Shown here piece by piece: positions 1-14,967 of a stretch of DNA of 16,430 nucleotides. The stretch's first letter is position 1. The number at the start of each line of letters is the position of its first letter. The stretch comes from Nitrospirota bacterium. GTDB lineage: Bacteria; JACPQY01. A program made the translations under genes and the position numbers. The stretch spans positions 1 through 16,430 of the forward strand of contig JACPAV010000060.1 in NCBI GenBank assembly GCA_016180645.1, read 5' to 3'. The notes under the pieces are model-generated. The model did no database searches. It was given only the letters and a program-made list of their open reading frames with translations, and was not told where the DNA came from.

Positions 1-747
1 CGTCAGGACGACCGTGAACGTGGCCGTGCCGCCCGCTTCGGTGGTGTTGCCGCTGATCGCGCTGACCGTGTAGCCGGACACGTCGTTGTCGTTGTTCGTC
101 ACCGCCACGTTGGGTGAGGGGGTTAGTCCGTTGTAGTTCGCGTCCGCGCTCGTCGAACCCGAGAAAACAATCGAGTAAGCAATATTGCCGTCCTGAACGG
201 CATCGTTCTGCCCGGTGACGGTGACGGTCTGAGGGGTGCTCCAATTGAGATTCGTGAACGTGAGGGAGGCCGGGCCGACCGTGCCCTCGGTCGTGTCGTT
301 CGACGTGTAGTTGACGGTGACATTCGCCGTCGGCTGGCTGTTGAGCATCACGGTAAAGGTTCCCGTGCCGCCCGCTTCGGTGGTGTTTCCGCTGATCGCG
401 CTAACTGTGTGGCCGGGCGTGTCGTTGTCGGTGTTCGTTACAGCCACATCCGCCGGGTCAAGACCGTTGTAGCTCGAATCGGTGCTCGTGGCGGCCGCGG
501 TGGTGATCGTGTAGGCCATGTTTCCGTCGGCCAGCGCGTCGTCCACGCCGGTCACTGTCACCGTCTGCGGCGTGTTCCAATCCAGGCTGGTGAAGGTGAG
601 GGAGGCGGGAGAGACTGTTCCCTCGGTTGCGTCCGAACTTGAAATCCCCACCGATGTGGCGGCCGTCGGCTGTGTGGTCAGAACGACGGCAAAAGTCGCC
701 GTTCCGCCCGCCTCGGTAGTGTTTCCGCTGATCGCGCCGACGGTGAT
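1..747 (-). repeat. Tandem Calx-beta-like domain repeats (two full, one cut by window edge)
   Basis: Each unit starts with a form of TVSAISGNTTEAGGT and ends with NTDND or NNDND. Unit starts on the minus strand are at 747, 411 and 72, giving periods of 112 and 113 codons. The DNA is also visibly similar: the segment encoding SGNTTEAGG recurs near 707, 371 and 32 with few changes, implying fairly recent duplication. Assignment to a Calx-beta-like fold is by recognition of the repeat style (TEGTVSPASLTFT, WNTPQTVTVTG) and was not tested by a profile search. Confidence 0.75.
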
Positions 748-3700
748 CCCTGCCGCTGCGATGGAAAAGTTCGCGTTCGACTCGTCGCTGGAAGTGTTCC
801 CGTAGGAGTCCGTCGCGATCAACTTCACACGCACCGTGCCGGAGGTGATTGCGGGCACCGTCCACGTGTAGGTGCTGTCGTTGGCTTCCCCGGTGGCGAT
901 CAGATTCGGATAGGAAGCGCCGCCGTCCGTGGAGTAGTAGAGCGAAATGGGGCCGGCGCCCAGATTCGGGTCGGTGATATCGGCGTTGGACCACGCGATA
1001 GCTCGTGTGGATCCCTGCGACCATGGTTCGGCCCCGTTCGGGGTAGTCAGCGTACCGGCGAGAATCGACGGGGCAGCGACATCATTCGTAAGAGCCGTGG
1101 GGGAGGATTGATTTCCGACCGCGTCCGTTGCCGTGATGTATAGGGAAGGGTTGGTATTGTCGCCGATGGCCGTGGCCCCAAAGGAGCCATCGGCCAATGA
1201 TGTGACGGTCGTGATGAGTGAGGTGAGGAGGCCATCGGAGTAGATCTTGACGGCGGAGTTGGCTTCGACGGCTCCGGCTGCTCCGCTGACGGTATCATTC
1301 GTGCCTGGCGTATTCTGGGTGATCGTGAGCTGGGCAGGCGCCGGCGCGGAAGGCGGTGTGGCGTCAACCGTCCATGTGAATGAGGCGGGTGATGCATCCG
1401 CGTTGCCCGCGGCGTCTTTCGCCCGGACGGAGAAAGTGTGCGAGGCGTCGGAGATCCCCGAGTACGCCTTTGGAGATGTGCAGGAGGCATATGCGGAGCC
1501 GTCCAGTTTGCACTCGAAGGTGGCCGTGTTTTCCGGACTCGTAAAGGTGAACGAAGCGGAGGTCTGGTTGGTGGGCGAGGAAGGTTGACCGCTGATGGAC
1601 GTTTCCGGGGCCGCGGTATCGAGCGTGACGGTTGCCGTCAGGCTTGAGGTGGCGTTCCCCAGGGAATCGCGGAACCGGACGTAGACGGTGCGGACACCAT
1701 CGGCGCCAGGCGCCAGGCTCCAGGTCTTGGAGGTGGAAAAGGGCTCGTAGGCTGAAAACGTCGCATCGTCGTTCGAAAACGCCATTTCCGCGGCGTCCGT
1801 GGCGGCGAGCGTCAAGGTGACTCCCAGGGTGCCGGTCACCGTCGCACCGCCGCTGATCGCCACCGTACCGCCCGCAGGTGCGCTGGTCTTCACGGTCCAT
1901 GCGTACGAGGCGGGCGTCGGATCGACGTTGCCGGCGGCGTCCGTGGATCGGACCGCGAACGCGTGTGAACCATCGGTTAGTGGCCCAGCGATCAAGTGGG
2001 AAGACGAGCAGGAGACGAACGCGGCGGAGTCGAGGGAACACTGGAACGCTGCAGACGGATCCGAGGAAGCGAAAGCAAACGCCGCGATTGTCTGATTGGT
2101 GAGCGCGGATGGTGTCGTCGAGATCGTCGTCTCCGGGGGCGCGGTGTCGACCGTCCATGTGTATGTGGCGGGCGTGAGATCCTTGTTGCCGGCCTTGTCG
2201 GTGGCGGAGACGGAGAGGGAGTTCGACCCTTCGACGGGGCTCAGGGCGAACGGGGAAGCGCAGGTCGCGGCAGGAGCGCCATTCAGAGAACAGGTAAAGG
2301 TACACCCCTCACCCCCGCCCTCTCCCGCAAGGGGAGAGGGGGAATTTTGGCAAGTGAAGCCAAAGGTGGCGGCGGAGGAATTGGTCAGTGCGGGCGGCGT
2401 GGACGCCGCCCCTACGAAGAGCGTGTCCGGCGGCGCGGTATCCACCGTCCACGCGAACGTCGCCGGCGTCTGATCCTTATTGCCGGCCTTATCGACAGCC
2501 GACACGGAAAACTTTTGGGATCCATCCTTCGACAAGCTCAGGACGAGCGGGGAAGCGCATGCCGCCGCGGCTTCCGCGTTGAGTTGGCACATGAAAGATG
2601 AATCGGGTTCGGTACTCGCGAACGTGAACGTGGCGGAGGTCTGGTTCGTCAGGAGGGCGGGCAAGCCCGCCCCTACCAGCGTCGTATCCGGCGGAATCGA
2701 GTCCTTGAGGGCCAGCTTGAACTTGACTTCGAGGGGGGTTGGGTCGGAATTGCCCAGCACATCGGAGGCCTTCACAAGAAGGGTGTGGTCTCCGTCTTCG
2801 GATGGCGGCATGTAGGCCGCCGGACACGAGGCGTAGTCGCCTCCATCAAGGGCGCAACGATAGGTGCAGGCAACCTTGGAGCAGTCGAACACGAAAACGT
2901 CAGACGCACCGGTCACCGCGCAGAGCGTTCCGGCTCCGCCGGCGCAGGGCTTCGTCTTGAGGATCGTGTCCGGCGAGGTCAGATCCACTTCCTTCAGTTT
3001 GAGCTTGAAATCCTGGGGAGGCTTCACGCCCGCCACTTCAAAATCCTGCCTCACTTTCGTTTCGAGCTGAACGCTCAGGGTCTCGAATGCCGCCTTCACC
3101 TGCTCGGTGGTAGGCTTGCTATCCGAGTTGGCTGCACCGGCGATGGCTTGTTGAAGGATGGACTGGGCGGTAGCCGCTGATCCGCCGCTCGAAGGGGACG
3201 AAGCGGCGACGGCCGAGGCAATTTCCGTTAGAGTGGAAATACCGTCCCCGTCAAGATCCGGGAGTTCCACCTGGTTCACGTCCAGAGGGGTATCCTTGAT
3301 TTCGAGTGTCAGGACAGGTCCCACTCCCGCCCCGGAAGGACCGGCCTCGGACTTCTGCACTTTCACTTCGATCGTCGTGGTGACCTTCACGTATTCGACT
3401 TCCTGGTGCCCGCGGGAACGGACGCGCGTGCTGATTTGATTCTGGCCATCCTGGGCGGATTTCTTGGGAAGATTGAACGAAATCTCAAACACAAAGGCCG
3501 TCTCGCCCTCACCCGCAGATTCGTCGCGTTTGGGCGCCCCTCGAACACCTCCGCGGACGCCGCCGCGGACACCGCCCTGCTCGGCGCCTCGGATTCCCCC
3601 GCGGACGCCACCCTGCTCCGCTCCGCGCACGCCCCCCCGAACGCCGCCGCGGATACCTTCCGCCACCATCTCGCCGTTCATGTACACGTCGGCCACCACT

Positions 3701-4017
3701 TCATCCCCCGCCTTCCCCTGAATGCCGTTCAGCATGGCGGCGATTTCGGGTGAGAGCGGGATATTCATGTCCATGGGGACGACATCTTTCTTGGCCTGTG
3801 GGAGTTCGAGGTTGCGAACGCAGGAACCGAGAGTGGTGAGGAGCAAGCCGTGAGCCGTAAGCAGCAGGGCAAGAATCGTGAACCGTGAGGAGCAGAGCGA
3901 GAGGCGAGAGGAGGGAGGCGAGAGGCGAGAGAAGAGGGAACAGCCCCGGAGCAGACGACGGGGTGAAGAAAAAAGCACGCGCGAGACTTGCCGCAAACTC
4001 AGCCCTGCAAACGACAT
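1..4017 (-). CDS. Giant multidomain surface lipoprotein with Ig-like and Calx-beta-like repeats (partial, 3' end outside window)
   Basis: One open frame runs from the ATG at 4017 to the window edge (1339 codons, no stop). Seen: a long basic/serine-rich N-terminus, then a hydrophobic stretch (FTILALLL...) ending in lipobox LGSC, with the lipidated Cys about residue 66. A small beta-type region follows, then ten tetrapeptides of type G[VI]RG/AEQG (121-160) and a calcium-loop-like motif DLDGDGISTLTE (254-265). Next come Cys-containing Ig-like modules with the signature DxAGNxDxTPAxxxWTVDTxPP (about 355-890), two other beta-sandwich-like modules (about 891-1090), and Calx-beta-like repeats of 112-113 residues from 1091. 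The family inference is an outer-membrane-anchored, surface-exposed adhesin or matrix protein; no enzymatic motif was seen. The start at 4017 is supported by a promoter placed so that transcription would begin at about the ATG (leaderless). The 46-residue n-region is unusually long and is encoded by heptamer repeats. Exact function unknown. Confidence 0.85.
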   Translation of the reverse strand, partial: MSFAGLSLRQVSRVLFSSPRRLLRGCSLFSRLSPPSSRLSLCSSRFTILALLLTAHGLLLTTLGSCVRNLELPQAKKDVVPMDMNIPLSPEIAAMLNGIQGKAGDEVVADVYMNGEMVAEGIRGGVRGGVRGAEQGGVRGGIRGAEQGGVRGGVRGGVRGAPKRDESAGEGETAFVFEISFNLPKKSAQDGQNQISTRVRSRGHQEVEYVKVTTTIEVKVQKSEAGPSGAGVGPVLTLEIKDTPLDVNQVELPDLDGDGISTLTEIASAVAASSPSSGGSAATAQSILQQAIAGAANSDSKPTTEQVKAAFETLSVQLETKVRQDFEVAGVKPPQDFKLKLKEVDLTSPDTILKTKPCAGGAGTLCAVTGASDVFVFDCSKVACTYRCALDGGDYASCPAAYMPPSEDGDHTLLVKASDVLGNSDPTPLEVKFKLALKDSIPPDTTLVGAGLPALLTNQTSATFTFASTEPDSSFMCQLNAEAAAACASPLVLSLSKDGSQKFSVSAVDKAGNKDQTPATFAWTVDTAPPDTLFVGAASTPPALTNSSAATFGFTCQNSPSPLAGEGGGEGCTFTCSLNGAPAATCASPFALSPVEGSNSLSVSATDKAGNKDLTPATYTWTVDTAPPETTISTTPSALTNQTIAAFAFASSDPSAAFQCSLDSAAFVSCSSSHLIAGPLTDGSHAFAVRSTDAAGNVDPTPASYAWTVKTSAPAGGTVAISGGATVTGTLGVTLTLAATDAAEMAFSNDDATFSAYEPFSTSKTWSLAPGADGVRTVYVRFRDSLGNATSSLTATVTLDTAAPETSISGQPSSPTNQTSASFTFTSPENTATFECKLDGSAYASCTSPKAYSGISDASHTFSVRAKDAAGNADASPASFTWTVDATPPSAPAPAQLTITQNTPGTNDTVSGAAGAVEANSAVKIYSDGLLTSLITTVTSLADGSFGATAIGDNTNPSLYITATDAVGNQSSPTALTNDVAAPSILAGTLTTPNGAEPWSQGSTRAIAWSNADITDPNLGAGPISLYYSTDGGASYPNLIATGEANDSTYTWTVPAITSGTVRVKLIATDSYGNTSSDESNANFSIAAAGITVGAISGNTTEAGGTATFAVVLTTQPTAATSVGISSSDATEGTVSPASLTFTSLDWNTPQTVTVTGVDDALADGNMAYTITTAAATSTDSSYNGLDPADVAVTNTDNDTPGHTVSAISGNTTEAGGTGTFTVMLNSQPTANVTVNYTSNDTTEGTVGPASLTFTNLNWSTPQTVTVTGQNDAVQDGNIAYSIVFSGSTSADANYNGLTPSPNVAVTNNDNDVSGYTVSAISGNTTEAGGTATFTVVLT
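2227..2255. repeat. Short interspersed repeat element, CTTCGACGGGGCTCAGG type, in frame in module B
   Basis: The plus strand reads CTTCGACGGGGCTCAGGGCG here. It resembles the element at 2526-2552 (CTTCGACAAGCTCAGGACG). Read on the minus strand it encodes SPFALSPVEGS, which occupies the loop after the second cysteine of Ig-like module B. I recognise this as a widespread interspersed short repeat of proteobacterial and metagenome-derived genomes; the family name was not checked. Confidence 0.6.
2305..2342. repeat. REP-like palindromic element inserted in frame in module B
   Basis: A 9-bp perfect stem, CCCTCTCCC (2318-2326) and GGGAGAGGG (2332-2340), with loop GCAAG, is preceded by CCCCTCACCCCCG. 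On the minus strand it encodes SPSPLAGEGGGEG, a peptide typical of such elements when they land in genes. Compared with modules A and C it adds about eleven residues between the first beta strand and the first module cysteine, so it looks like a tolerated in-frame insertion. Confidence 0.75.
2390..2416. repeat. Hairpin element (GGGCGGCGT/ACGCCGCCC) in frame at the module B linker
   Basis: Arms 2392-2400 and 2403-2411 are perfect 9-bp complements with a 2-nt loop, followed by CCTACG. The minus strand encodes VGAASTPPAL in the linker between PPDTL and LTN of module B. The linker is two residues longer than in module C, which lacks the element. Confidence 0.65.
2526..2552. repeat. Short interspersed repeat element, CTTCGACAAGCTCAGGACG type, in frame in module A
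   Basis: The plus strand has CTTCGACAAGCTCAGGACG followed by AGCGGGG. The minus strand encodes SPLVLSLSKDGS, in the loop after the second cysteine of Ig-like module A, the same position as the related element in module B. Module length here equals that of the element-free copy at residue 803, so the element replaced rather than lengthened the loop. Confidence 0.65.
2655..2676. repeat. Hairpin element (GGGCGGGC/GCCCGCCC) in frame at the module A linker
   Basis: An 8-bp perfect stem (2655-2662 with 2665-2672, loop AA) is followed by CTAC. The minus strand encodes VGAGLPALL between PPDTT and TNQT of module A, the same linker position as the 2390-2416 hairpin in module B, again with two extra residues relative to module C. 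Confidence 0.65.
3538..3657 (-). repeat. Tetrapeptide tract (G[VI]RG with AEQG spacers) in the giant lipoprotein
   Basis: Residues 121-160 are ten tetrapeptides in the order GIRG, GVRG, GVRG, AEQG, GVRG, GIRG, AEQG, GVRG, GVRG, GVRG. The 12-bp DNA units vary at synonymous sites (for example Arg as CGC, CGG and CGA). The same tract type is present in the lipoprotein at 5711. Function unknown. Confidence 0.85.
3836..3931. repeat. Degenerate heptamer tandem repeat within the signal-peptide coding region
   Basis: On the plus strand, eight 7-bp units run from 3836 to 3891 (GTGAGGA, GCAAGCC, GTGAGCC, GTAAGCA, GCAGGGC, AAGAATC, GTGAACC, GTGAGGA). After a 5-nt break, five units run from 3897 to 3931 (GCGAGAG four times and GAGGGAG once). 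On the minus strand they encode residues about 29-61 of the giant lipoprotein, including most of its hydrophobic signal segment. Confidence 0.8.
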
Positions 4018-4023
4018 GCGACG

Positions 4024-4052
4024 TTTCTAGCAACCACGCAACGTGATGTCAA
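4024..4052 (-). promoter_or_regulatory. Sigma70-type promoter of the giant lipoprotein gene, probably leaderless
   Basis: On the minus strand there is a perfect -35 TTGACA (4052-4047), a 17-nt spacer and a -10-like TAGAAA (4029-4024, 4 of 6 matches). Six nucleotides separate the -10 from the ATG at 4017, so the expected start of transcription coincides with the A of the start codon and no ribosome-binding site is possible. Confidence 0.6.
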
Positions 4053-4080
4053 GTTGTTTCTCAATTTTTTCCAGTAGAAA

Positions 4081-4096
4081 TGTGATGTACGTCACA
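4081..4096. promoter_or_regulatory. CRP/FNR-family operator-like palindrome
   Basis: The sequence TGTGATGTACGTCACA matches the CRP consensus TGTGA-N6-TCACA in all ten conserved positions and is preceded by AAA. Its centre (4088.5) is 71.5 bp upstream of the inferred transcription start at 4017, a helical phase at which CRP-type activators act. It could instead, or also, serve the plus-strand NADH dehydrogenase gene. The regulator itself is not in the window. Confidence 0.6.
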
Positions 4097-4276
4097 ATCG
4101 TGATTATTCTCGTATTTGCAGGGATTTGGGCGGTCAACATTCGGTGGGCGGAGTCAGTACGAGCATTCGAAGTTGAAGTTGGACTTGAATATTTGTCCCC
4201 CACCAGGGAATCGATCCTGTGTCTTGGCCCAAGGGCTGGGTTTGCCGAAGGCGCCCGGCTGCGCTAAAAGTCGGCT

Positions 4277-5647
4277 GTGCCAGCCGTGAAAAGTTCCATC
4301 CCCAGCGTTGTCATCGTGGGAGCCGGGTTCGGAGGGCTCTGGGCCAGTGGTCGTCTGAAAAGTGCTGCACTGCAGGTGACGATTTTGGACCGCCAGAACT
4401 ACCACACGTTCTTCCCCCTCCTCTACCAGGTGGCGGCAGCCGAAATTGAGCCGGAGGAAATCGCTTACCCCGTGCGCAGCATCCGCCAGAAAACTTCGCA
4501 CGCCCGTTTTTTCGTGGCGGAGGTGCGCCGGATCGATCTTCAGGCGAGACGGATCCTGACCGACGGCCCCGAGCTTCCCTACGACTACCTGATTCTCGCG
4601 CCGGGGAGCGTGCCCCATTTTTTCGGAGTGCCGGGCGCGGCGGATTTCGCCTTCCCCCTGCGAACGATGGATGACGGCATCGAGCTGCGGAATCACATCC
4701 TGAGCTGCTTCGAGCGCGCCGTCCCGATTGGTGGCATCCAGCCAGTCGCGGGGCGGCTGGGCCATCCTAGCGCCGTTCGTGAACCGGATCCCGCCGAGAG
4801 CCGATCTCTGCTTACGTTTGCCATTGTGGGCGGAGGCCCCACGGGTGTCGAATTCGCAGGGGCCCTCGCGGAACTCATTCACGGACCGTTCCGCACAGAT
4901 TACCCCTCCATCCAGGATGGTGATCCGCACGTCCTTCTCCTCGAGGCGGCGAACGGCCTCCTTCCGGGACAGCCGGCGAACTTGGCCCGATACGCAGCCG
5001 ACCGGCTTCGCTCCCGGGGAGTGGCCGTGCGGCTCGGGGCCGTCGTCAGCAAAATTGACGAGAGGGGTGTGGGTCTCAAGGACGGTAGCTTTGTTCCGAG
5101 CCGAACGGTGGTGTGGACCGCCGGGGTATCGGGTCCACCCGCCTTGGAGCAATGGGGGCTTCCGATGGCGAAGGGCGGGCGGGTCGCCGTTCGGCCAACC
5201 CTCCAGGTCCCGGACCATCCGGAAGTGTACGTGGTGGGCGACTGCGCCCACGTGGAGCACGAAGGCCGTCCCCTTCCCGGAGTTGCACCGGTGGCTATGC
5301 AGGAAGGCGAGTGGGCTGCAGAGAATATCCGGAGGCAGATCGCCGGAGAGGATCCTGTCCCATTCATGTATAGGGATCTCGGCACGATGGCGGTGATCGG
5401 CCGCAACGCGGCTGTGGCTCGCATCGGAAAGCGTTCATTCACCGGCTTTACCGCCTGGGTCATGTGGCTCGTGGTCCACTTGATGAGGCTGATCGGATTT
5501 CGGAACCGTCTCGTTGTCTTGTCGAGCTGGGCATGGGATTATTTCTTCTTTGACCGAGTTGTTCGCTTGATCCTTCCGTCAACGCACCGAAGGGACTCCG
5601 CGCGAGCGTTCAAACCGGGATCACCCGGAGGGGCGCAAGAAACGTAG
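4277..5647 (+). CDS. ndh: Type II NADH dehydrogenase (NADH:quinone oxidoreductase, FAD-dependent)
   Basis: The family transfers electrons from NADH to the quinone pool at the inner face of the cytoplasmic membrane without pumping protons. Seen: FAD-binding GAGFGG (15-20) with the following NYHTFFPLLYQVA motif (41-53) typical of NDH-2, the LAPGS segment (108-111), the second Rossmann motif VGGGPTGVEFAGALAEL (184-200) for NADH, GDCAH (321-325) contacting FAD, and VAMQEGEWAAENI (339-351). The C-terminal 390-435 segment is rich in aromatic and hydrophobic residues with basic residues, the usual membrane anchor. Length 456 aa is normal. Residues about 150-177 look like a small extra loop before the second Rossmann fold. 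The start is GTG with no clear Shine-Dalgarno; GTG at 4286 is an alternative. It lies 63 bp before the next lipoprotein gene, so cotranscription is possible. Confidence 0.93.
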   Translation: MPAVKSSIPSVVIVGAGFGGLWASGRLKSAALQVTILDRQNYHTFFPLLYQVAAAEIEPEEIAYPVRSIRQKTSHARFFVAEVRRIDLQARRILTDGPELPYDYLILAPGSVPHFFGVPGAADFAFPLRTMDDGIELRNHILSCFERAVPIGGIQPVAGRLGHPSAVREPDPAESRSLLTFAIVGGGPTGVEFAGALAELIHGPFRTDYPSIQDGDPHVLLLEAANGLLPGQPANLARYAADRLRSRGVAVRLGAVVSKIDERGVGLKDGSFVPSRTVVWTAGVSGPPALEQWGLPMAKGGRVAVRPTLQVPDHPEVYVVGDCAHVEHEGRPLPGVAPVAMQEGEWAAENIRRQIAGEDPVPFMYRDLGTMAVIGRNAAVARIGKRSFTGFTAWVMWLVVHLMRLIGFRNRLVVLSSWAWDYFFFDRVVRLILPSTHRRDSARAFKPGSPGGAQET

Positions 5648-5710
5648 GGGGCCGTGCCACGATTTTGCATCGCGGGCCCGTCGTGGTACATTTGGACGCG
5701 GGAGGTCACC

Positions 5711-6778
5711 ATGAGATTCCATGCAGCCGTGTCCCTGCTCGCTTTCGTCATCCTCACAGCCGCGTGCGCGAGCGATTCCACACCGCCGAAACAGAAGGAA
5801 TTGAGCCTCGATGTGCCGGTCCTCTCTCAAACCGCAGTGGCCTTGGAAGGCATGGGCGAGCTGGAGGCCACACTCGCCGTAGATGGACAGAACCTGTCGG
5901 GAGTTCGCGGCGGGGTTCGAGGCGGAGTTCGTGGAGGCGTGAGGGGAGGGGTCCGAGGCATCGGGACGCGTGACGCGGGGCGCGAGACGCAGGCAAGAGG
6001 GGGACCGGCGTCCGGTGCCTTGCGATCAGCGCAATCTTCGGAGTTCCCGGTTTACAATGTGACCTACACGTTCGAATCCATTCCCGAGAGTCTGGCGAGC
6101 GGCTCGCATCGTCTGCATCCGATCTTCGTTCGGGCCACCGATCCGGTGGGAGAGGAGCGCGGGCTCTGTTGGTTTGAGTTTGACAAGGAGCTGTCGTCCG
6201 ACGGGGCGCTCGTGGATCCCCTGATCGATCCGAACAGCGAGCTGTTCGGGATCCCCGACGACGACCAGGACGGTGTGTCCAACCTGGTCGAGCTGGCGAT
6301 CGGGAGCGATCCGACGAATGCATCGGCCCGCCCCTCCGCCGATGAGATCAGGGCGAAAGGATTCGACGCGACGCCGCCGGAGACCACGATCACAAGCTGC
6401 ACGGCAGCCTCTGGGGGTGGTCGGACTGTGGAGTTTTCATGCTCGGAGCTGTGCGCCGATGCGACCAAAGAAGGCGACCTGATCGGCTCATCGTCCCTGG
6501 CCGCGATGGCCCGGGACGACGCAAGGAACGCAGCTCAGGATGAGCTGCAGCATACGTCGCAACCGACGCTCGCCTGTGCGGTCACCGCCCAGATCGCCCA
6601 GTGCGGCTTCCGATGCAAAGTGGACGGCCCGTCAGGGGAAGGGAGAGTGGAGGTTTGCCGTAGCGGCTTCGTCGCAAAATCTTCGGGGGCCGGGAAATAC
6701 ACTTTCAGCGTGCGGGCTCTCGACGGCTTTGGGAATGCCGACACGACTCCGGCCACATGTGAGTGGAACGAACCATAA
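5711..6778 (+). CDS. Lipoprotein with GVRG repeats and TSP3/EF-hand-like motif; short relative of the giant lipoprotein
   Basis: ATG 5711 was chosen because GGAGG lies 5 nt upstream and a signal peptide follows directly (MRFHAAVSLLAFVILTAAC, lipid Cys at 19). A beta-rich segment resembles the N-terminus of the giant lipoprotein (LDVPVLS against MDMNIPLS; AVDGQNLSGVRGG against YMNGEMVAEGIRGG). It is followed by five GVRG units (64-83), a linker, a second beta region, then the loop DDDQDGVSNLVELAIGSDP (183-201) of the thrombospondin type 3/dockerin style. One Cys-rich Ig-like module begins at PPETTITSC (222) and ends with YTFSVRALDGFGNADTTPA. The overall order therefore matches the giant lipoprotein in reduced form. 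An outer-membrane location is inferred; the role is unknown. A longer start at 5654 is possible but would hide the signal peptide. Confidence 0.82.
   Translation: MRFHAAVSLLAFVILTAACASDSTPPKQKELSLDVPVLSQTAVALEGMGELEATLAVDGQNLSGVRGGVRGGVRGGVRGGVRGIGTRDAGRETQARGGPASGALRSAQSSEFPVYNVTYTFESIPESLASGSHRLHPIFVRATDPVGEERGLCWFEFDKELSSDGALVDPLIDPNSELFGIPDDDQDGVSNLVELAIGSDPTNASARPSADEIRAKGFDATPPETTITSCTAASGGGRTVEFSCSELCADATKEGDLIGSSSLAAMARDDARNAAQDELQHTSQPTLACAVTAQIAQCGFRCKVDGPSGEGRVEVCRSGFVAKSSGAGKYTFSVRALDGFGNADTTPATCEWNEP
5900..5959 (+). repeat. (GVRG)5 tetrapeptide tract
   Basis: Five exact GVRG units occupy residues 64-83. Their Arg codons are CGC, CGA, CGT, AGG and CGA, and their Val codons are GTT, GTT, GTT, GTG and GTC, so the peptide is identical while the DNA has diverged. 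This argues for selection on the protein sequence. Confidence 0.9.
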
Positions 6779-6906
6779 TCCTCTCGCATCTTGGGGCTGA
6801 ATGCCCCCATCTCCGGGCAAAAAAGTCCGAATTCGCGCCCTCCAAGGCCCCATCACACCCCTGAAAAGTGATTTGGCACACATTTGCTAGGAGGAAGGCT
6901 AAGTAC

Positions 6907-6975
6907 ATGAACGCATACCGTACAAGAACCAATGGGAGGGTTCTTTGCCCTCCTTCAGAAAGGGGTGAGTCATGA
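6907..6975 (+). CDS. Possible 22-codon leader ORF overlapping the start of the next lipoprotein gene
   Basis: An ATG at 6907 is preceded by AGGAGG (6889-6894, spacing 12 nt) and encodes MNAYRTRTNGRVLCPPSERGES. Its TGA stop (6973-6975) overlaps the ATG of the 825-aa lipoprotein in the form ATGA. A small hairpin (GGAGGG with CCCTCC) lies within it. This arrangement suggests translational coupling or a leader peptide, but the ORF is short, the spacing long, and the downstream gene has its own purine-rich AGAAAGGGG site, so it may be plain 5' untranslated RNA. Confidence 0.3.
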   Translation: MNAYRTRTNGRVLCPPSERGES

Positions 6976-9449
6976 AATACATCCGTTCTCTTGGAACAAT
7001 CGTTTTCGCCGGCTCGATCCTCGCGTGCGAAGTGAGCGGGACCGGGACCGGAACCACAGTATCGAAGGAACCGAGCGAGAATGAACAGACGGCTCAAGCC
7101 GTCGCCTCCGTTGCGGATACCACCCAGACTCTGAACGAAACGGTGGAGACGGTTCAGACCGTCACCGAACTGACCTCCACGGTGGAGAGCTTGAGCGAGA
7201 CCGGCTCAACACTCCAATCGGCCTCCTCGGCCGGATCGGCGACCTCAACGACCTCCACCCTTGGCGGAATCCGCGGCGCTCCGGCGCGTGCCGATGCCGC
7301 GGCCACCGAAACGCCCGATTTCGGCAAGTGTGATGCGACCCCCACCGACGCCGCACCACTCCCGTGCCACTGCATCTACAAAACCCCCGAGAAATTCGGG
7401 CTGGACCAGGATGCCAAGTGCGCGGAACACGTCCCGGGCGCCGCCAAGGCCGTCGTGGCCACCGTGCGCATCAAGACTACCGACGAGGCCGACATCTACA
7501 AAATCACGATCAAGGCCGTTGTACCCGCCAAGGCCGACCTGCCGGCGGACGTCAAGAAGCATTGCGTCGTGGCGGGGACGGAGATGACCTGCTCGGCGGA
7601 TACCGTTGTCGTGAAACGTTGCAAGGACGACGGAGTCACCTGCTTCTTTGTGCCCGCCCCGGCGATTCCCGAGGGCAGTGTGGTGTTCATCAACCGTCGA
7701 TTCGAGCTTCCGGATGATTACAAGGCCCCGGAGGATTTCAAGGATCAGACCGCGGTCACCACATGGCTCAAGGCCATCCTTGAAGGCTGGAACACGGCGA
7801 AGAATGACGACGAGCGCCGCGCCTTCATCAAGCGCTTCCTGATCGTGGACAACGGCTGGGTCACCGAGATCAAGAGAGTTCAGTGCGAACCGGGAAATGA
7901 GAAACAGAAACCCGGCGAGCCGTGGTGCCCGGATTTCCGCCCGCCCGCGGAAGGGAAGGACGGCGCCCAAGCGCCGCATCCGGTAAAAGAGAGCGGAATG
8001 CGGTTCATCTCGCGGCAAGTGCCCCCGCCGGTCCTCCCCGGCGAGACGCCCTCCGCAGAGCCGGCCAATCTTGGCCACTACGAAGTGGATTTCCGGATGA
8101 TCGATTTGAAATTCAGAATGCCGGGCGAGCAGCAGCCCCGCAAGACGCAGGCGTTTCGTGTTGCGCTGGAGAAGCCCGGCGAGGCATGCACACCGGTCGA
8201 CCTCAAAGGCCAGCCTCTCTCCGGAGCGCCCAGCGGACGGCTGATCACCGCCACGCACGCGGCCATCGAGGCGCACGGCGGATACGAGAACGGCGGTCGA
8301 AAGGCGTGCCGTGCCGTGGAGAAAGTAAAACTCGAATCCGGCAAGGTCGTCACGCCGACGAGTTGGGTGAGCCAGGAGTTCGCGCGACTCCAGATTCTGC
8401 CGGTCCCGCCGCCCGACAAGGCCCCGGCGCGATATCCCGTAACGCGCGAGGAAAAAGGGAAGCACTACCTCGTGGTCGATCCGCCCGAGAAGGTGCAAAA
8501 AGAGCGCGAGGAGAAGGTCGGGACGGTTGCCGACAAGGATCGGCGGCCCGGCGCGGGTGGAACCACGGCCACGGGAACCGATACGAACCGACTCCGCGGA
8601 GTCGAGGATCGAGCGACGGGTGAAGGGGTCGCCGCGGTTGCCAAGGCCCAATCGGACCGGTGCCCCGGCCACGGCGAGGGAATCACCAACGTCACCATCA
8701 AGTTCAATGACGGCCGCATCGACGAGAGGGTCCATCGTTACCTGAAAGAAGAGGGCGTCTGCCAGCCCACTCCGCTCGACGAGGATGGAAATCCGATTCC
8801 TGTAGAGGAGGATGAGAAGGGGAATCTCAAGATTAAGATCAAGGACAAGAAAGGTCAGGACTTGGACGTGTCCGTCGAGAATCCCGAATCCCCATCGAAG
8901 ACCATCAAGATCAGCGCCGGGTTCGTTTCAGGCTACATCAACCTCCACGAGGCGGACGAAAATGGCGTCATCGGCGAAGGGACACTGAACGTCACCGTTC
9001 CGGGAACGAGCGTCGAGGTCAGCCTAACGATGACCGAGGCCGGATGGCAGCATGTGCAAGGGAAGGCCACGATCAAGAGCGGAAAGAACGGCACGAAGAC
9101 CATGCTTTTCTGGCAGGATCGCACTGAGAGTGGCGCGTTGATCAAGTTCAAGCTGGTTGCGTCGGGCGAAATCACCGTCGCCGAAAGCGCGGAAGCCCAA
9201 GCCGAAGCCGCCTCAGCTGAAGGATCGCTGGACATGACAGTTCCCTCCGATTCGTCCAATGCCTGCGAGGAGGTGGGACAGGGAAGCCTCAACGAAGCCG
9301 GCACGGGGTATTCCCTGACGGTTTACGAAGACACGAGCACCCTGATCAGGATCGGAAACAACACGGTGAATGTTCCTGTCGGCTGCGCGGGCGGAGGAAC
9401 GCCGGCGACGACAACGGCCGACACCGTCTCCGCGGCAACGAAAGGCTAG
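6972..9449 (+). CDS. Large lipoprotein of unknown function with N-terminal coiled-coil-like segment
   Basis: The 825-aa product starts at ATG 6972, with AGAAAGGGG just upstream and an immediate signal peptide ending SILAC (lipid Cys 19). Residues about 37-82 are Thr/Glu/Val-rich with hydrophobic residues at helical spacing, suggestive of a coiled-coil or stalk. GGIRGAP (98-104) is a single copy of the tetrapeptide found repeated in the two other lipoproteins. The centre (about 115-480) has scattered cysteines (for example C120, C132, C134, C150) and charged segments, and a Lys/Asp-rich linker follows. The C-terminal third (about 640-800) looks like beta sandwich (NLHEADENGVIGEGTLNVTV...) with two cysteines. 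The tail is Thr/Ala-rich. I do not recognise the family. It is the last gene before a strong terminator, probably outer-membrane-anchored. Confidence 0.82.
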   Translation: MKYIRSLGTIVFAGSILACEVSGTGTGTTVSKEPSENEQTAQAVASVADTTQTLNETVETVQTVTELTSTVESLSETGSTLQSASSAGSATSTTSTLGGIRGAPARADAAATETPDFGKCDATPTDAAPLPCHCIYKTPEKFGLDQDAKCAEHVPGAAKAVVATVRIKTTDEADIYKITIKAVVPAKADLPADVKKHCVVAGTEMTCSADTVVVKRCKDDGVTCFFVPAPAIPEGSVVFINRRFELPDDYKAPEDFKDQTAVTTWLKAILEGWNTAKNDDERRAFIKRFLIVDNGWVTEIKRVQCEPGNEKQKPGEPWCPDFRPPAEGKDGAQAPHPVKESGMRFISRQVPPPVLPGETPSAEPANLGHYEVDFRMIDLKFRMPGEQQPRKTQAFRVALEKPGEACTPVDLKGQPLSGAPSGRLITATHAAIEAHGGYENGGRKACRAVEKVKLESGKVVTPTSWVSQEFARLQILPVPPPDKAPARYPVTREEKGKHYLVVDPPEKVQKEREEKVGTVADKDRRPGAGGTTATGTDTNRLRGVEDRATGEGVAAVAKAQSDRCPGHGEGITNVTIKFNDGRIDERVHRYLKEEGVCQPTPLDEDGNPIPVEEDEKGNLKIKIKDKKGQDLDVSVENPESPSKTIKISAGFVSGYINLHEADENGVIGEGTLNVTVPGTSVEVSLTMTEAGWQHVQGKATIKSGKNGTKTMLFWQDRTESGALIKFKLVASGEITVAESAEAQAEAASAEGSLDMTVPSDSSNACEEVGQGSLNEAGTGYSLTVYEDTSTLIRIGNNTVNVPVGCAGGGTPATTTADTVSAATKG

Positions 9450-9484
9450 CCGGAAAGCAAGTCAGGTCCTCCTTCTACGATTGC

Positions 9485-9524
9485 GCCCTCCATCCGCTGA
9501 TGTGGCGGATGGGGGGCTTTTTTT
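9485..9524 (+). terminator. Rho-independent terminator of the 825-aa lipoprotein gene
   Basis: A 13-bp stem with one G-T pair (9485-9497 with 9505-9517) and a 7-nt loop is followed directly by seven T (9518-9524). It lies 35 bp after the stop codon. Confidence 0.92.
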
Positions 9525-9532
9525 CGGGGGGT

Positions 9533-9553
9533 TCAGCCGTCAGCGATCAGCCT
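9533..9553. repeat. Heptamer tandem repeat, three units
   Basis: TCAGCCG, TCAGCGA and TCAGCCT follow one another without a break between the terminator and the 21-bp inverted repeat. The unit length matches the other heptamer tracts in this window; this is the one copy that is not within a gene. Confidence 0.65.
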
Positions 9554-9554
9554 T

Positions 9555-9604
9555 CTATCTAGGCTAAGCCTCTATAGCGGACCATAGAGGCTTAGCCTAG
9601 ATAG
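9555..9604. repeat. Perfect 21-bp inverted repeat overlapping the 3' end of the diiron gene
   Basis: The arms 9555-9575 and 9584-9604 are exact reverse complements, separated by the 8-nt loop AGCGGACC. The right arm contains the last codons (Tyr-Leu-Gly-stop) of the minus-strand diiron gene. No T tract follows on either strand, so it is not a classical terminator, although it could act as an mRNA 3'-end hairpin. Confidence 0.9.
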
Positions 9605-10764
9605 GGGATCCCAAAAACATCTTCTCCGAAGACTTCCTTCTCGATCGCCAGGATATCGGGGCGAATCTCGCCCTCGTGAAGCTCGGTATAGTCCCGGTAG
9701 CCCGTGAATTTTTCCGGCTCGAACGCCCGAACGCAACTGTTGAAAAAGAGATTCAGAATGGCGAGGAACTCTTCGCGCGGTCGGAGCAGCGGCATACCGG
9801 AATTCTCGGCCAGCCGGGTGGCCTTCGCCACGAATCGACCGAAGAAGCCGAAGCAGTCCATCCCGACCGCCTCGAACGCGTCCTTGTAGTCCCAAATGAG
9901 TTTGGCGGCGGGCAGAAGGAGAAGCTCCCGGGCGAGCCTGTCGCGCCGACTGTTCGTCACCTCCTCCGGGACGTTCCCAGCCTCGTAGTAGTTCTTCGGG
10001 AACCCCACGTGTCGCGATTCATCGAGGTGAAAGACCGGGAGGATGTGGCGCAGTCCGGGGAAATCGGCAAACTGGGCGAAGAGCGACGTGGCGAAGCTCT
10101 CGAGCACCACGTTCATGCCGTAGAGCTTCAGGTACGGGCGCGCCTGCGCAATTTTTTCGAATGTGATGAAGGCGGAATCGTGGAGGGGCACGCTGTGGCC
10201 CAGCGTCCGGACCATCGCGCGGAGGACGATGAAGTGCTTCGCTTCCTCCATCACCTGCATGGCCATCCCCATCTTGGAGCCGGTGCCGGTGACCACCGGA
10301 AGAAGGGTCGAACTCGTGTAGAGCGCATACGCCTCTCCGTGCGCGATGAGCGACATCAGTTTGCAGACCGCTTCCCGCTGCTCCGGGGAAAAGGCTTCCT
10401 CGAATTCGCGGCGGACGTCCTCCGAAGTGGCGCGTTCCATCAGCTCGTCCGTTTCGCCCTTCTGGGCGTCGGGGTCCACGCCCAGCTTTTCCACCTCGGT
10501 CGCATCGTGAAATCCGAGGTACGGGGCCTGAACCTCCGCCTTCCAGATCTTGCGGAGGGCTTTTTCATAGACTTTGCGGGTGAGCTCTTCCATGTCGCCC
10601 CCTCGAAACGCGTGCGCACGGTCGTCGTAGTCGTTGGCCTGAGTTCTTTCCAGCTTCCGCCTCCAGCGGGGCTCGACCCAATTGTACGCCGCCGCCGCCA
10701 AGGGTCCCCCGTGGCAGAACGCCGCCCAGGTCGCTTTCTGACGCATCGCCGCCATCGTGTTCAT
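9592..10764 (-). CDS. Ferritin-like diiron carboxylate protein (paralogue 1)
   Basis: The 390-aa product has the ligand pattern of a four-helix-bundle diiron enzyme: E144 in HGEAYALY, E174-x2-H177 in MEEAKH, E222 in VLES and E249-x2-H252 in DESRH. A further His (246) three residues before E249 is also conserved in the paralogue at 14968. This E/ExxH/E/ExxH set is shared by ribonucleotide reductase R2-like and AurF-type oxygenases, which use O2 to oxidise organic substrates; which reaction applies here cannot be told. There is no signal peptide, so it should be cytoplasmic. The start at 10764 has a GGAGGT site upstream and overlaps the TetR stop as ATGA, implying translational coupling. It is close to the 14968 protein throughout (for example MAMQVMEEAKHF identical). 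Its stop codon lies in the 21-bp inverted repeat. Confidence 0.85.
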   Translation of the reverse strand: MNTMAAMRQKATWAAFCHGGPLAAAAYNWVEPRWRRKLERTQANDYDDRAHAFRGGDMEELTRKVYEKALRKIWKAEVQAPYLGFHDATEVEKLGVDPDAQKGETDELMERATSEDVRREFEEAFSPEQREAVCKLMSLIAHGEAYALYTSSTLLPVVTGTGSKMGMAMQVMEEAKHFIVLRAMVRTLGHSVPLHDSAFITFEKIAQARPYLKLYGMNVVLESFATSLFAQFADFPGLRHILPVFHLDESRHVGFPKNYYEAGNVPEEVTNSRRDRLARELLLLPAAKLIWDYKDAFEAVGMDCFGFFGRFVAKATRLAENSGMPLLRPREEFLAILNLFFNSCVRAFEPEKFTGYRDYTELHEGEIRPDILAIEKEVFGEDVFGIPYLG

Positions 10765-11396
10765 GGTTTCACCTCCCCTGAGGGATTTCCCCCAAGAATC
10801 TTCACGAGGACCTTCTTGAAATCTTCAAACGCGCGATCGCCCCGGCCGGGATCGGCCGAGAACAGGGCGTGACCGCAGAAACCGATCAGCGCGGCCATGA
10901 CGATATCTGCAAAGCTCTCTGCGCTCATATCGAGCTGGTTCTGAAGCGGGCCCAAGACCGTTCGAATGCCTCCGACCAGGAGCGCCCGTTGTTCCTCGAT
11001 GGAGTGGACCACCCTGCGCTTCAAAGTTTTCCGTGTCATCGATCGGGCGGCCAAGTCCATGAACACCGGTAGGAGCGGCTGCGCCTTTTTCAGGAGCTTC
11101 CACAATTCGTCGAACGCCCACAGGGCCTGCTGAACCGAGGGACCGAGCTGCGACGTGGCGCCCTCCACGCGATCGGAAATCTTGCGAAAGAGCAGGGATT
11201 GCACCTCCAGCAGAAGCTGCTCCTTGGATTTGAAATGGTAGTGCAGCAGACCTTTTGAGACGCCGGCTTCGCGCGCGATGTCGTCCATGGACGTGGACTG
11301 AAACCCGTTTCGATTGAAGCAGGTGAGCGCGGCTTCGAGGATGGCCTGCATCGAAGCGGCCCGGCGCTCCGCGTGGCTTCGACGCGGATGCGCCAT
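10761..11396 (-). CDS. TetR/AcrR-family transcriptional repressor
   Basis: The N-terminal helix-turn-helix is typical: AILEAALTCFNRNGFQSTSMDDIAREAGVSKG, then LLHYHFKSKEQLL. The C-terminal ligand-binding half is helical, with LWKLLKKAQPLLPVFMDLAARSM. ATG 11396 was chosen because it puts the usual short basic leader before the helix-turn-helix; upstream in-frame starts at 11456, 11462, 11465 and GTG 11492 are also possible, and none has a strong ribosome-binding site. It is cotranscribed with the diiron gene (ATGA overlap) and divergent from the TonB receptor, so it probably controls both directions and itself in response to a small hydrophobic ligand (inference from the family). Confidence 0.9.
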   Translation of the reverse strand: MAHPRRSHAERRAASMQAILEAALTCFNRNGFQSTSMDDIAREAGVSKGLLHYHFKSKEQLLLEVQSLLFRKISDRVEGATSQLGPSVQQALWAFDELWKLLKKAQPLLPVFMDLAARSMTRKTLKRRVVHSIEEQRALLVGGIRTVLGPLQNQLDMSAESFADIVMAALIGFCGHALFSADPGRGDRAFEDFKKVLVKILGGNPSGEVKP

Positions 11397-11533
11397 CGCC
11401 CGCTGCGATCGGCCTCCCGCCCTCCGTGGGAAGATTGGTGTTACGCTTGCTTGCATAGTCATCATACTGGCACTTGCCCCAGGTCGGCTCACCTTCCTGG
11501 CTCGCCCTGATCAGGCAAGTACCGCACCATCCT

Positions 11534-11551
11534 TGGCTGGCTAGCCAGTCA
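11534..11551. promoter_or_regulatory. Candidate TetR operator palindrome
   Basis: CTGGCTAGCCAG (11537-11548) is a perfect 12-bp palindrome that extends to 18 bp with one mismatched pair. It lies in the divergent region between the tetR gene and the receptor gene, where an autoregulatory TetR site is expected. A second, 10-bp palindrome CCTGATCAGG lies at 11506-11515. Confidence 0.45.
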
Positions 11552-11657
11552 GTATTACATCCTACGGAAACCATGTGGACCTGTCAAGTCCCCATTAGTT
11601 TCCCGGCCGGCTCATCGATTTTTTGGGTGGGGACGGGTATGCTCCGCAGCCGGCGGG

Positions 11658-13925
11658 ATGATGACGATGAGGATGAGCACATGGGCGATGAGTCTCTTGC
11701 TTCTCGTGGCGATGGCATCTATCGCTCGAGGCGACGAGAGGACGCCGTTGGCAGGGCGCCTCCTCGAAAAGGGCACCCGCCGTCCTATCGAGGGAGGAAC
11801 AGTGATGGTGCTTGAGACCTCCGAATTTGCTCTCACGGATCGCTCGGGGAACTTCATCCTAGCCACTCCAAACACACTTCCCCTCACATTCAAGATCCTC
11901 GCCCCCGGATACAAACCCTTTGAGGAAAAAATCGATTCTTGGCTGGACGGACGACGGGTGACGGACGACGGACGACGTTTTTTCTACCTCGATCCCGAAG
12001 TCGTCTCCTCTCTCGAAGTGCTCGTGGAGGCCGAGGCCGAGCGGCGGGAAACGGCCCGGAGAGTCATCACCCGGCAGGAGGTGCAGAAAGCGGCCGGAAC
12101 CGGGGGGGACGCCATCAAGGTGGTGCAAGACATGCCGGGGGTGGCCCGCACCCCTTTTTCGGGGGGGGGGTTGATCGTTCGCGGTTCGGCCCTCGAAGAC
12201 ACCGGCGTCTACATGGACGGCCACGAGATCCCGCTCCTCTTCCATTTCGGCGGCCTCACGAGTACGTTCAACTCCGATCTCATCCGCGACCTCCGCTTCT
12301 ACCCAGGCGTCTACTCCGTGAGGTACGGCCATGAGATGGGCGGCATTGTCGACATCCGGTCGCGCGCCGGGGACGCCACCGGCACACATGGGTACGTGGA
12401 CGCCGACTTCTACGATGCGGGCACTCTTTTGGAGGGACCCGTCAAGAATTTCTCGTACACTGCGTCCCTCCGACGGAGCTACGCGGATGCCATCATCAAA
12501 GCGGCCGTCCCGGAGGATGTCGTCCGATTCACCCTCGCTCCCCGCTACTATGATTACGAGGCTTCCGTCGGGGGTCGATTCCTCCCGCGCATGTCCGGGT
12601 CACTCATGGCGTTCGGATCGGACGACAAGATGGCCCTCGTGCTCGAGGAACCGCCGGGTCGAGAAGTGGAGTTTTCGGGTAATTTCAATTCCAACCTGTA
12701 TTTCCATCGCCTGCTCGCGAAATGGAGCTGGGATCTCGGGGCGAACCTTCGAAATGAATTCTCGACGGCCGCGGGTCCGGACCGCATCCTCTTCCGAATA
12801 GCCGAACTCAGCCATCTCAGCATCCGGATCTGGAACACTTCGCTAAGGGATGAGCTCTTCTACCAGCCCACTCCCTGGCTCACGCTCTACCCCGGGATCC
12901 ATTTCGTCTGGGGCAGAGGCAACTACGACGCGAGATTCCCCCGAATCCCGAGGGAGGACGACCCCGAGCATGCCTACGACCCGGTCTCGGTTCGCGACGC
13001 CGACGGCGTCCTCGCCGGCTCGGCGGTCTCGCCCTACCTAGAAGCCGTGATCCGACCGATCAGTCGGATCAGCCTGACCCCAGGGGTGCGATTGGACCGC
13101 TACACTATCCAAAATCAAACACCGATTTCCCCGCGGATGACCGCGCGATATCAGCTCTTGGAACCGCTCACGTTCAAGGTGGGCGCAGGCCTCGTTCACC
13201 AGCCCCCCGAACCGCAGGACGTGGCCGAGGGAATTGGCCAGCCGGAGCTGGGCGTCCAGCGCGCGGCCCAGTACACGGGCGGATTCGAGGTCGATCTCCC
13301 CCGAGGATGGAGCGGCGACATCCAGGGATTCTACAAAGACCTGTCGCTCCTCGTGGTCCGAAAGGCCGAATCCGACATTTCCAACTACGATCCTTCCGAT
13401 CTTGAAAACGGCGGCATCGGCCGCATCTACGGAAGCGAAGTGTACCTCTCATGGAAGAACCCCCGCGGATTCGCCTGGTGCAGCTACACGCTCTCACGGA
13501 GCGAACGACGCGACCACCCTGGAGAAGACTATCGATTCTTCAGCTTCGACCAGACTCACATCCTGACCGTGGTGGGCACGCTGAGCTTGACGGCGAAATG
13601 GGACCTCGGAGCGCGCTTCCGATACTCCACGGGCCGCCCGGAAACCCCGTTCATCGATTCGATCTACGACGCGGATCGCGACCGGTACATCCCGATCCCC
13701 GGGGAACTTTATTCCGTTCGAATCCCCGGGTTTCACCAGCTTGACGTGCGCGTCGACCGGCGCTGGAGATTCAATACGTGGATGCTGACAAGCTATCTCG
13801 ACATCCAGAATGTGTACGTGCAGAAGAACCCCGAGGGGTTTTCCTACAACTATGACTACAGCGAACGGCAGGCCGTGACGGGCATCCCCATCTTTCCGTC
13901 TTTCGGCCTTAGAGCGGAGTTCTGA
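11658..13925 (+). CDS. TonB-dependent outer-membrane receptor with N-terminal carboxypeptidase-regulatory-like domain
   Basis: The 755-aa product carries a signal peptide (MSLLLLVAMASIARG) and then an N-terminal beta-sandwich of the CarboxypepD-regulatory type (about 28-115, RTPLAGRLLEKGTRRPIEGGTV). A TonB-box-like LEVLVEAE follows, then a plug (about 135-235) with MPGVARTPFSGG, LIVRGS, VYMDGHEIPLLFHFGG and YGHEMGGIVDIRSR. The rest is a beta-barrel ending in Phe (GLRAEF), as outer-membrane barrels do. Such proteins import ligands using TonB energy; the ligand is unknown. The gene is divergent from tetR and followed within 22 bp by a lipoprotein gene. Oddities: a heptamer repeat encodes residues about 97-107, and tracts G7 (12102-12108) and G10 (12161-12170) lie in the plug-coding part. 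Several ATGs cluster at 11658-11675, so the exact start is open. Confidence 0.92.
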   Translation: MMTMRMSTWAMSLLLLVAMASIARGDERTPLAGRLLEKGTRRPIEGGTVMVLETSEFALTDRSGNFILATPNTLPLTFKILAPGYKPFEEKIDSWLDGRRVTDDGRRFFYLDPEVVSSLEVLVEAEAERRETARRVITRQEVQKAAGTGGDAIKVVQDMPGVARTPFSGGGLIVRGSALEDTGVYMDGHEIPLLFHFGGLTSTFNSDLIRDLRFYPGVYSVRYGHEMGGIVDIRSRAGDATGTHGYVDADFYDAGTLLEGPVKNFSYTASLRRSYADAIIKAAVPEDVVRFTLAPRYYDYEASVGGRFLPRMSGSLMAFGSDDKMALVLEEPPGREVEFSGNFNSNLYFHRLLAKWSWDLGANLRNEFSTAAGPDRILFRIAELSHLSIRIWNTSLRDELFYQPTPWLTLYPGIHFVWGRGNYDARFPRIPREDDPEHAYDPVSVRDADGVLAGSAVSPYLEAVIRPISRISLTPGVRLDRYTIQNQTPISPRMTARYQLLEPLTFKVGAGLVHQPPEPQDVAEGIGQPELGVQRAAQYTGGFEVDLPRGWSGDIQGFYKDLSLLVVRKAESDISNYDPSDLENGGIGRIYGSEVYLSWKNPRGFAWCSYTLSRSERRDHPGEDYRFFSFDQTHILTVVGTLSLTAKWDLGARFRYSTGRPETPFIDSIYDADRDRYIPIPGELYSVRIPGFHQLDVRVDRRWRFNTWMLTSYLDIQNVYVQKNPEGFSYNYDYSERQAVTGIPIFPSFGLRAEF
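11946..11977. repeat. Heptamer tandem repeat in the receptor coding sequence
   Basis: GACGGAC, GACGGGT, GACGGAC and GACGGAC, plus a partial GACG, run without a break. The frame encodes the charged stretch LDGRRVTDDGRRFF at the end of the N-terminal domain, just before the plug. Because 7 is not a multiple of 3, the repeat is read in shifting frames. Confidence 0.8.
12161..12170 (+). repeat. Poly-G tract (G10) in the receptor plug region
   Basis: Ten consecutive G follow CCCCTTTTTC and encode Ser-Gly-Gly-Gly of the plug motif. A one-base change would shift the frame early in the protein, so expression could be switched by slippage. No variation can be seen from one sequence. Confidence 0.7.
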
Positions 13926-13930
13926 TGAAC

Positions 13931-14022
13931 GTGAAGGGTGAAGAGTGATGGGTGAAGGAAGAGAAGGCCGGGGCGCCAAGGGTCGGATCCTGCACATCAC
14001 CCTTTACTCATCACTCATCACG
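13931..14022. repeat. Two inverted blocks of heptamer repeats at the start of the lipoprotein gene
   Basis: Block 1 (13931-13958) is GTGAAGG, GTGAAGA, GTGATGG, GTGAAGG. Block 2 (13995-14022) is CATCACC, CTTTACT, CATCACT, CATCACG, roughly the reverse complement of block 1. The two blocks could therefore fold as an imperfect hairpin around a GC-rich centre. Block 1 covers the probable ribosome-binding area and start codon; block 2 encodes part of the signal-peptide core. Confidence 0.8.
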
Positions 14023-14933: not shown

Positions 14934-14967
14934 CGTGTCACCATATCAGTCCAAGGAGGACGCGATA

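Follow-up and report, generated by a model that had tools for sequence, protein, structure and literature searches.

Degenerate heptamer arrays and signal peptide cores in a Nitrospirota draft genome

Heptamer arrays and their host genes in the window

The window analysed here is contig C60, a stretch of 16,430 bp from the 4.72-Mb draft genome of a Nitrospirota bacterium (G000), and its subject is a set of tandem repeats with a 7-bp unit (heptamer arrays), several of which lie in genes for exported proteins. The organism is known from draft assemblies alone, and one genome per species was compared. Detection with Tandem Repeats Finder (TRF) and direct reading recovered heptamer tracts at all four loci named in the initial annotation. 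Tracts 1, 3 and 4 are inside genes as it had stated, and tract 2 is non-coding. The repeat at 13931-14022 had been described as a single tract; it is a heptamer repeat, but it consists of two arrays in opposite orientation (13931-13958 and 13995-14021). The arrays and their host genes are listed below.

1..4017, minus strand: giant Big-domain lipoprotein gene (Pfam Big_13/Big_6), host of tract 1, truncated at the edge of the stretch
3836..3943, minus strand: tract 1, composite heptamer, giant-lipoprotein residues ~24-61 (n-region and h-region), ending LLLTTLGSC
9533..9553, minus strand: tract 2, (TCAGCNN)3, non-coding, between convergent genes
11658..13925, plus strand: TonB-dependent receptor gene (Pfam TonB_dep_Rec_b-barrel, Plug), host of tract 3
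11946..11977, plus strand: tract 3, GACGGAC x4.6, in frame in the receptor, encoding DGRRVTDDGRR
13931..13958, plus strand: tract 4, left array, GTGAAGG x4, lying between receptor stop and lipoprotein h-region
13945..14862, plus strand: lipoprotein gene, host of tract 4, with a 38% identical orthologue in L114/G001 in which the lipobox is conserved
13995..14021, plus strand: tract 4, right array, CATCACT x3.9, encoding the lipoprotein h-region HITLYSSLIT

The repeats supply the signal peptide (SP) core in both lipoproteins, as had been claimed, although in tract 4 only the right array does so. These arrays are translated. The 13945 lipoprotein and its same-family orthologue have the lipobox Cys in common (STACGIDQGEPT / GAACGLDPGDPT), and therefore translation must run through the array; at the right-array site the orthologue carries CTGCTCAC x4, encoding LLTAHCLLLT. 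A hydrophobic segment followed by a conserved lipobox Cys, as expected of a lipoprotein signal peptide (SPII), was found both in this comparison and among the giant-lipoprotein paralogues.

The tracts differ in unit and in surroundings. On the coding (minus) strand, tract 1 passes from about five CGCCTCT units into TCACGGT/TTCACGA/CTTACGG/CTCACGG-like units, and TRF places it at 3849-3936 with periods 7/21/28. Tract 2 (TCAGCCG TCAGCGA TCAGCCT) has three units only and falls under the TRF threshold; its family (TCAGC/GCTGA) recurs at other G000 sites. Tract 3 occupies the site of a 6-residue gap in the receptor's orthologue in G001, the only same-family genome compared (a sister genus, 84%-complete, of which 10% was read). 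The left array of tract 4 covers the annotated start codon (13945), contains Shine-Dalgarno (SD)-like purine runs, and is complementary to the right array, with which it is predicted to form a hairpin.

Period 7 across the genome and in signal peptides

The dominance of 7 bp, together with 14 and 21 bp, is a genome-wide property of G000 and goes beyond chance. Our sample comprised 2.07 Mb in stretches (44% of the genome; GC 60.7%), in which TRF returned 88, 54 and 24 rows of periods 7, 14 and 21, compared with 0, 6 and 4 rows, respectively, in an order-3 Markov control of equal length. Strong segments numbered 101 at lag 7, 18 at lag 8 and 1-8 at lags 4-6, 9-11 and 13; they were also few at lags 15 and 16, with a range of 1-18 over lags 4-6, 8-11, 13, 15 and 16. 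The unit families include TCATCAC/GTGATGA, CTCAAAT, CGCCTCT, TTCACGA, GGTCAGC and others. TGA occurs on one strand in ~60% of lag-7 arrays, and most are therefore translatable in one orientation only. G000 also has a second array class, of period 8 bp (with CATGATTC or CGTGAGCC as the unit), which includes some inverted pairs just past stop codons; examples of the class are C16:86144-86196, C19:81235-81341, C11:56489-56591 and C3:187235-187341.

The sister genus shares the period and differs in the units. We counted ~14 lag-7 arrays in 0.32 Mb of G001 against 0-1 at lags 4-6 (two fully masked contigs excluded). Unit matches in G000 and G001 were 36 vs 1 for TCATCAC, 8 vs 53 for TGYTCAC, and 53 vs 6 for CTCAAAT. 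Of 290 genomes, 11 have an exact TCATCAC array; they come from scattered families, and most have one or two copies.

Arrays are concentrated in SPs. Of the 120 G000 arrays of score >=12, 34 are intergenic and 86 fall in genes, where 39 of them occupy the first 60 codons; depending on the count, 86-92 of the 120 are in genes, and coding arrays are thus in the majority, yet base for base the spacers are denser in arrays. Window tests were run with 66-nt windows and a relaxed SP predictor, a window being positive when it held a lag-7 segment of score >=10. Positive windows made up 16/414 in SPs (3.9%), 15/2345 in intergenic DNA (0.64%), 4/1148 at other N-termini (0.35%) and 1/3726 in internal coding DNA (0.03%), a density in SPs that is 6x intergenic, 11x other N-termini and ~150x internal coding. 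The excess of SP over intergenic windows is significant (p=1.7e-6) and remains so when the C65 lipoprotein paralogues are counted once (p=2e-4), so that the enrichment at N-termini of exported proteins on which the initial annotation had staked its proposal is present in the sample. Lag 14 is likewise in excess in SPs (3.6%), while other lags stay at <=0.5%, and codon shuffling in SP windows removes the lag-7 signal (0.06 on average). A stricter SP predictor placed 9 arrays in SPs; the expectation is 0.8 under a uniform distribution and 3.1 within N-terminal and intergenic DNA. Arrays also make up 5.3% of bases in short co-directional spacers; since a spacer grows longer by the very arrays it contains, the argument is built on counts per junction and not on this value.

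Encoded peptides, orthologues and other array sites

A period of 7 bp is not divisible by 3, and any unit free of stops therefore gives an identical 7-residue cycle in all frames; the frame equivalence proposed earlier follows from simple arithmetic. The accompanying expectation of a hydrophobic LTxHxLL-like peptide wherever an array lands was too broad. It applies to TCAC-type units in one orientation only; the GTGATGA strand has stops, and CTCAAAT gives the hydrophilic KSQISNL. Within the G000 sample, CTCAAAT units occupied internal and N-terminal positions, and none was seen as an SP core. Array-bearing SPs include MKAVRLVFL-ITLHSSLI-TISPAC, MSDVKPRFLIH-RITHHSSLI-TLFVTLHASLLTSAC and MRREVKPRGSDARHWSY-LITHHSSLI-TLFITLHASLFTHLQTAHA. 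The variable A/T base of TCAC-type SP arrays is T rather than A (Leu, not His) by 10:2 at second codon positions, compared with 7:20 at first and third positions, at which either base makes little difference (contrast p=0.0014, paralogues collapsed). This codon-phase bias toward Leu points to selection for hydrophobicity. The median Kyte-Doolittle (KD) value is 0.16 for in-gene arrays of SP genes vs -0.77 for other in-gene arrays (p=4e-4).

Export preceded the arrays. We compared ten array-bearing exported proteins with their G001 orthologues, and all ten orthologous N-termini read as SPs. Alignment in search of repeat-free orthologues had a divided outcome: five of the ten have ordinary SPs (e.g., MRLTILTLLTLVVASC in an acylase-like protein), and others have a different 7-bp unit at the equivalent site. 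TGYTCAC arrays occupy that site in the G001 orthologues of a FadL-like outer membrane protein, p179, p263 and the 13945 lipoprotein, which matches the genome-wide unit preference given above. Units thus turn over at orthologous sites. The sampled part of G000 holds seven giant-lipoprotein paralogues, five with ordinary SPs and two with heptamer SPs of differing units, and one member of the C65 lipoprotein cluster has LSAHCLLLT in place of the ITLHSSLFT of the other paralogues. Because repeat-free orthologues and paralogues already have ordinary SPs, the arrays invaded or replaced existing SPs, and the suggestion that repeats make new surface proteins finds no support.

Some further features of these proteins were recorded. 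GGVRG-type peptide repeats (12-bp DNA repeats) at 3549-3653 and 5898-5931 are common to G000 lipoproteins, with paralogues on C3, C5, C11, C20 and C21; they come soon after the mature N-terminus, downstream of a conserved 'IPLSPEIAAALNG...VAEG' segment. TCATCAC arrays lie inside SPs of unrelated genomes, one of a SurA-like protein (G171 C33, L211) and one in G210 C29 (L196), and the SurA-like SP of G000 itself holds a heptamer array (CGATTCT).

Judged from alignments, arrays inside enzymes behave as tolerated insertions. The mnmG gene of G000 (C2:63998-65347) has three heptamer arrays of differing units, all in frame, at sites that correspond to gaps of 6 residues, about 32 residues, and a small one in a solved homologue. 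In MnmE, an array adds 8 residues after DTAGLR relative to the solved homologue. Sequences of solved structures were used for both because MnmG and MnmE orthologues were not found in the 84%-complete sister genome. That genome has an array in an apparent valyl-tRNA synthetase, and unrelated genomes have arrays in WaaA-, HypF-, ThiL- and PyrK-like loops, all identified by eye.

Gene junctions are a further array site. Arrays were found at 49/1186 co-directional junctions vs 4/311 others (p=0.015), with 2/159 at convergent junctions, and array density climbs at -60..0 of genes as well as in SPs and loops. At 11 G000 places (e.g., C2:289839, C3:191026-191114 and C5:93541), the end of a GTGAWGR array is formed by the fixed motif TGAARYCCC(C)G. 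In several cases this motif follows a gene start at a distance of 13 nt, and proteins that are otherwise unrelated thereby have similar N-termini, M(K)S(E/D)VKPR. The co-directional excess and this recurrent spacing make it possible that arrays also play a part at translation starts. The leader of the 13945 lipoprotein has a predicted fold of -56.4 kcal/mol (z=-5.5). A start-codon hairpin as a shared function was rejected, as the orthologous leader has z=+0.7 and only 4/16 SP-array genes have z<-3.

Two features of the window lie beside the array-bearing genes. Tract 2 is positioned right after a terminator-like hairpin, and a perfect 21-bp inverted repeat (CTATCTAGGCTAAGCCTCTAT) with an 8-nt loop and no long T run spans 9555-9604 between the two convergent genes; this inverted repeat is probably a two-way terminator. 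Related proteins of ~390 and 435 aa, at 9592-10764 (minus strand) and 14935-16242 (plus strand), are oppositely oriented around the receptor operon and share ...GGD(M/L)EELT...YEKAL...WKAEV.AP.LGF.DA..., with no Pfam match.

Origin of the arrays and competing explanations

We consider it probable that degenerate heptamer arrays settle where insertions are tolerated and that some were captured and tuned to form the core of SPs that already existed. The tracts of the window would be members of a population of degenerate arrays, 7-bp and some 8-bp, that extends over the genome, is abundant in the lineage and has units that differ between genera. A process with a 7-bp period may create and rewrite them, most simply slipped-strand copying with occasional homogenisation; template switching may also be involved, with 7 nt as the ruler of the copying. 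Arrays would persist where an insertion harms little, namely at gene junctions, in N-terminal extensions, in enzyme surface loops and above all in SPs, and an array landing or growing in a gene would usually yield one predictable peptide. NNNTCAC units (TCATCAC in G000, TGCTCAC in the sister genus) read L-I-T-x-H-x-S or L-L-T-A-H-C-L. After His-to-Leu tuning by selection, such peptides may be hydrophobic enough for an h-region, and for this reason NNNTCAC arrays could replace the SP core of proteins that are already exported. A bolder version, which we hold only tentatively and would not bet on, is that dispersed 7-bp repeats are a renewable source of SP cores, with the units at orthologous genes rewritten genome-wide, one heptamer of hydrophobic reading giving way to another (TCATCAC to TGYTCAC), by concerted evolution while export is kept, such that SPs evolve as satellite DNA here and, independently, in other phyla.

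Several points weigh against capture and tuning. Gene starts were taken from a home-made caller (hexamer coding model) and SPs from regular expressions rather than from Prodigal and SignalP, and SP enrichment was measured in the G000 sample, 44% of one genome. The SP-window arrays are few in absolute number (16), and duplication within one lipoprotein family accounts for 5 of them. Some cytosolic proteins have arrays at the N-terminus as well (HIT, agmatine deiminase, PanC, Der), and N-terminal tolerance therefore explains part of the pattern. Several SP-array genes are weakly hydrophobic (LITHHSSLIT), and the array-coded peptides are presumed to act as signals in vivo.

Uniform neutral 7-bp slippage with purifying selection could produce much the same picture if SPs accept nearly any hydrophobic string. 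Junctions and loops are also array-enriched, and PMC4679880 describes heptanucleotides as the top long-repeat class in many bacteria and attributes a polymerase-footprint explanation to Mrazek 2007. Intergenic density should then be at least equal to that of SPs, but it is 0.64% vs 3.86%; convergent junctions are array-poor (2/159), and the codon-phase bias to Leu indicates selection on the encoded peptide. Tolerance without capture is thus rather unlikely as a full account. The co-directional excess recalls instead the regulation proposed for Beggiatoaceae TAACTGA repeats, in which an array at a start codon or within an operon spacer would offer binding sites on the RNA or fold into a hairpin that masks the ribosome-binding site. 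GTGA arms with SD-like runs and start codons, the recurrent 13-nt distance to TGAARYCCC, and the strong predicted fold of the 13945 leader all agree with such a role. However, the hairpin is not in the orthologue, few SP-array genes have a comparable fold, and many arrays lie deep within enzymes, leaving RNA-level regulation improbable as the general cause.

A mobile palindromic element, similar to a miniature inverted-repeat transposable element (MITE) or a Rickettsia palindromic element, would insert inverted heptamer arms in frame. Inverted arms do lie 40-100 bp apart at many loci, GTGA arrays share the trailing TGAARYCCCG, and conserved enzymes carry in-frame insertions. Yet loops and flanks differ among copies, there is neither a fixed element length nor a target duplication, the many unit families are alike in period only, and units differ at orthologous sites. 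A search of the sequence downstream of GTGA arms in G000 found no conserved element body, only the arms and the short TGAARYCCC motif being recurrent; we therefore regard a mobile element as very unlikely. Phase variation, in which gain or loss of a 7-bp unit shifts the frame and toggles a surface protein, would suit the frequency of surface lipoproteins among hosts, and heptanucleotide tracts act in this way elsewhere, as in the case of Haemophilus HMW1A (PMC8262952). Most of our arrays, however, are degenerate, with 3-5 units only, and similar ones sit in the housekeeping MnmG and MnmE, so that we give contingency loci little credence. Even less can be said for de novo recruitment, in which repeats upstream of cytosolic genes generated new exported proteins. 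Arrays do extend the N-termini of the cytosolic HIT protein and agmatine deiminase, but these extensions are too little hydrophobic to resemble signals, and an SP is present in every tested orthologue or paralogue of array-bearing exported proteins, which contradicts recruitment for 10 orthologue sets.

The arrays resemble several known repeat systems. Heptamers as dominant long simple sequence repeats (long SSRs), including the short tandemly repeated repetitive (STRR) heptamers of cyanobacteria, are described in PMC4679880 and PMC4692102. They share with our arrays the 7-bp unit, short degenerate arrays, lineage-specific units and a patchy distribution across phyla, and in G000, too, period 7 is far above chance and above other periods. 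The mostly intergenic location of STRRs is not shared, as G000 arrays are mostly inside genes, in frame and concentrated in SPs, with no single unit and no G-quadruplex motif. The TAACTGA direct repeats of Beggiatoaceae (MacGregor 2015, PMC4679880) have one fixed unit, with 10/170 sets interior to open reading frames. Similarities include heptamers with TGA, 2-6 copies, many positions near start codons and strain-specific paths. In contrast, G000 has many units and a majority of coding arrays, whereas TAACTGA sets are nearly all intergenic; no TAACTGA family is found among the G000 consensus units. Rickettsia palindromic elements (PMC10969869) are ~150-bp sequences with a conserved body, which also insert in frame in unrelated protein genes and are tolerated at surface positions, as found here for MnmG, MnmE and the receptor; the G000 arrays are plain heptamer arrays without such a body. 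Borg tandem repeats (PMC9879509) are likewise genome-specific, frequent in extracellular proteins and a source of new protein segments. In Borgs the coding units are perfect, have lengths divisible by three in all cases and encode disordered regions, unlike the degenerate 7-bp units of G000 that supply a hydrophobic signal core.

Degenerate heptamer arrays are thus a known repeat type, and a literature search of incomplete coverage found no prior report of their enrichment in SPs or of their capture and tuning as SP cores. SPs are classic fast-evolving, weakly constrained sequences, and random sequence is often functional as an SP. Against this background, a mutational process of fixed 7-base period seems to write SP sequence in G000, readable alike in three frames. 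The observation links the dynamics of simple repeats to protein export and offers a natural test of the minimal information in an SP. It is also a warning for annotation, as N-terminal tracts of period 7 are real coding sequence, neither junk nor the product of wrong starts.

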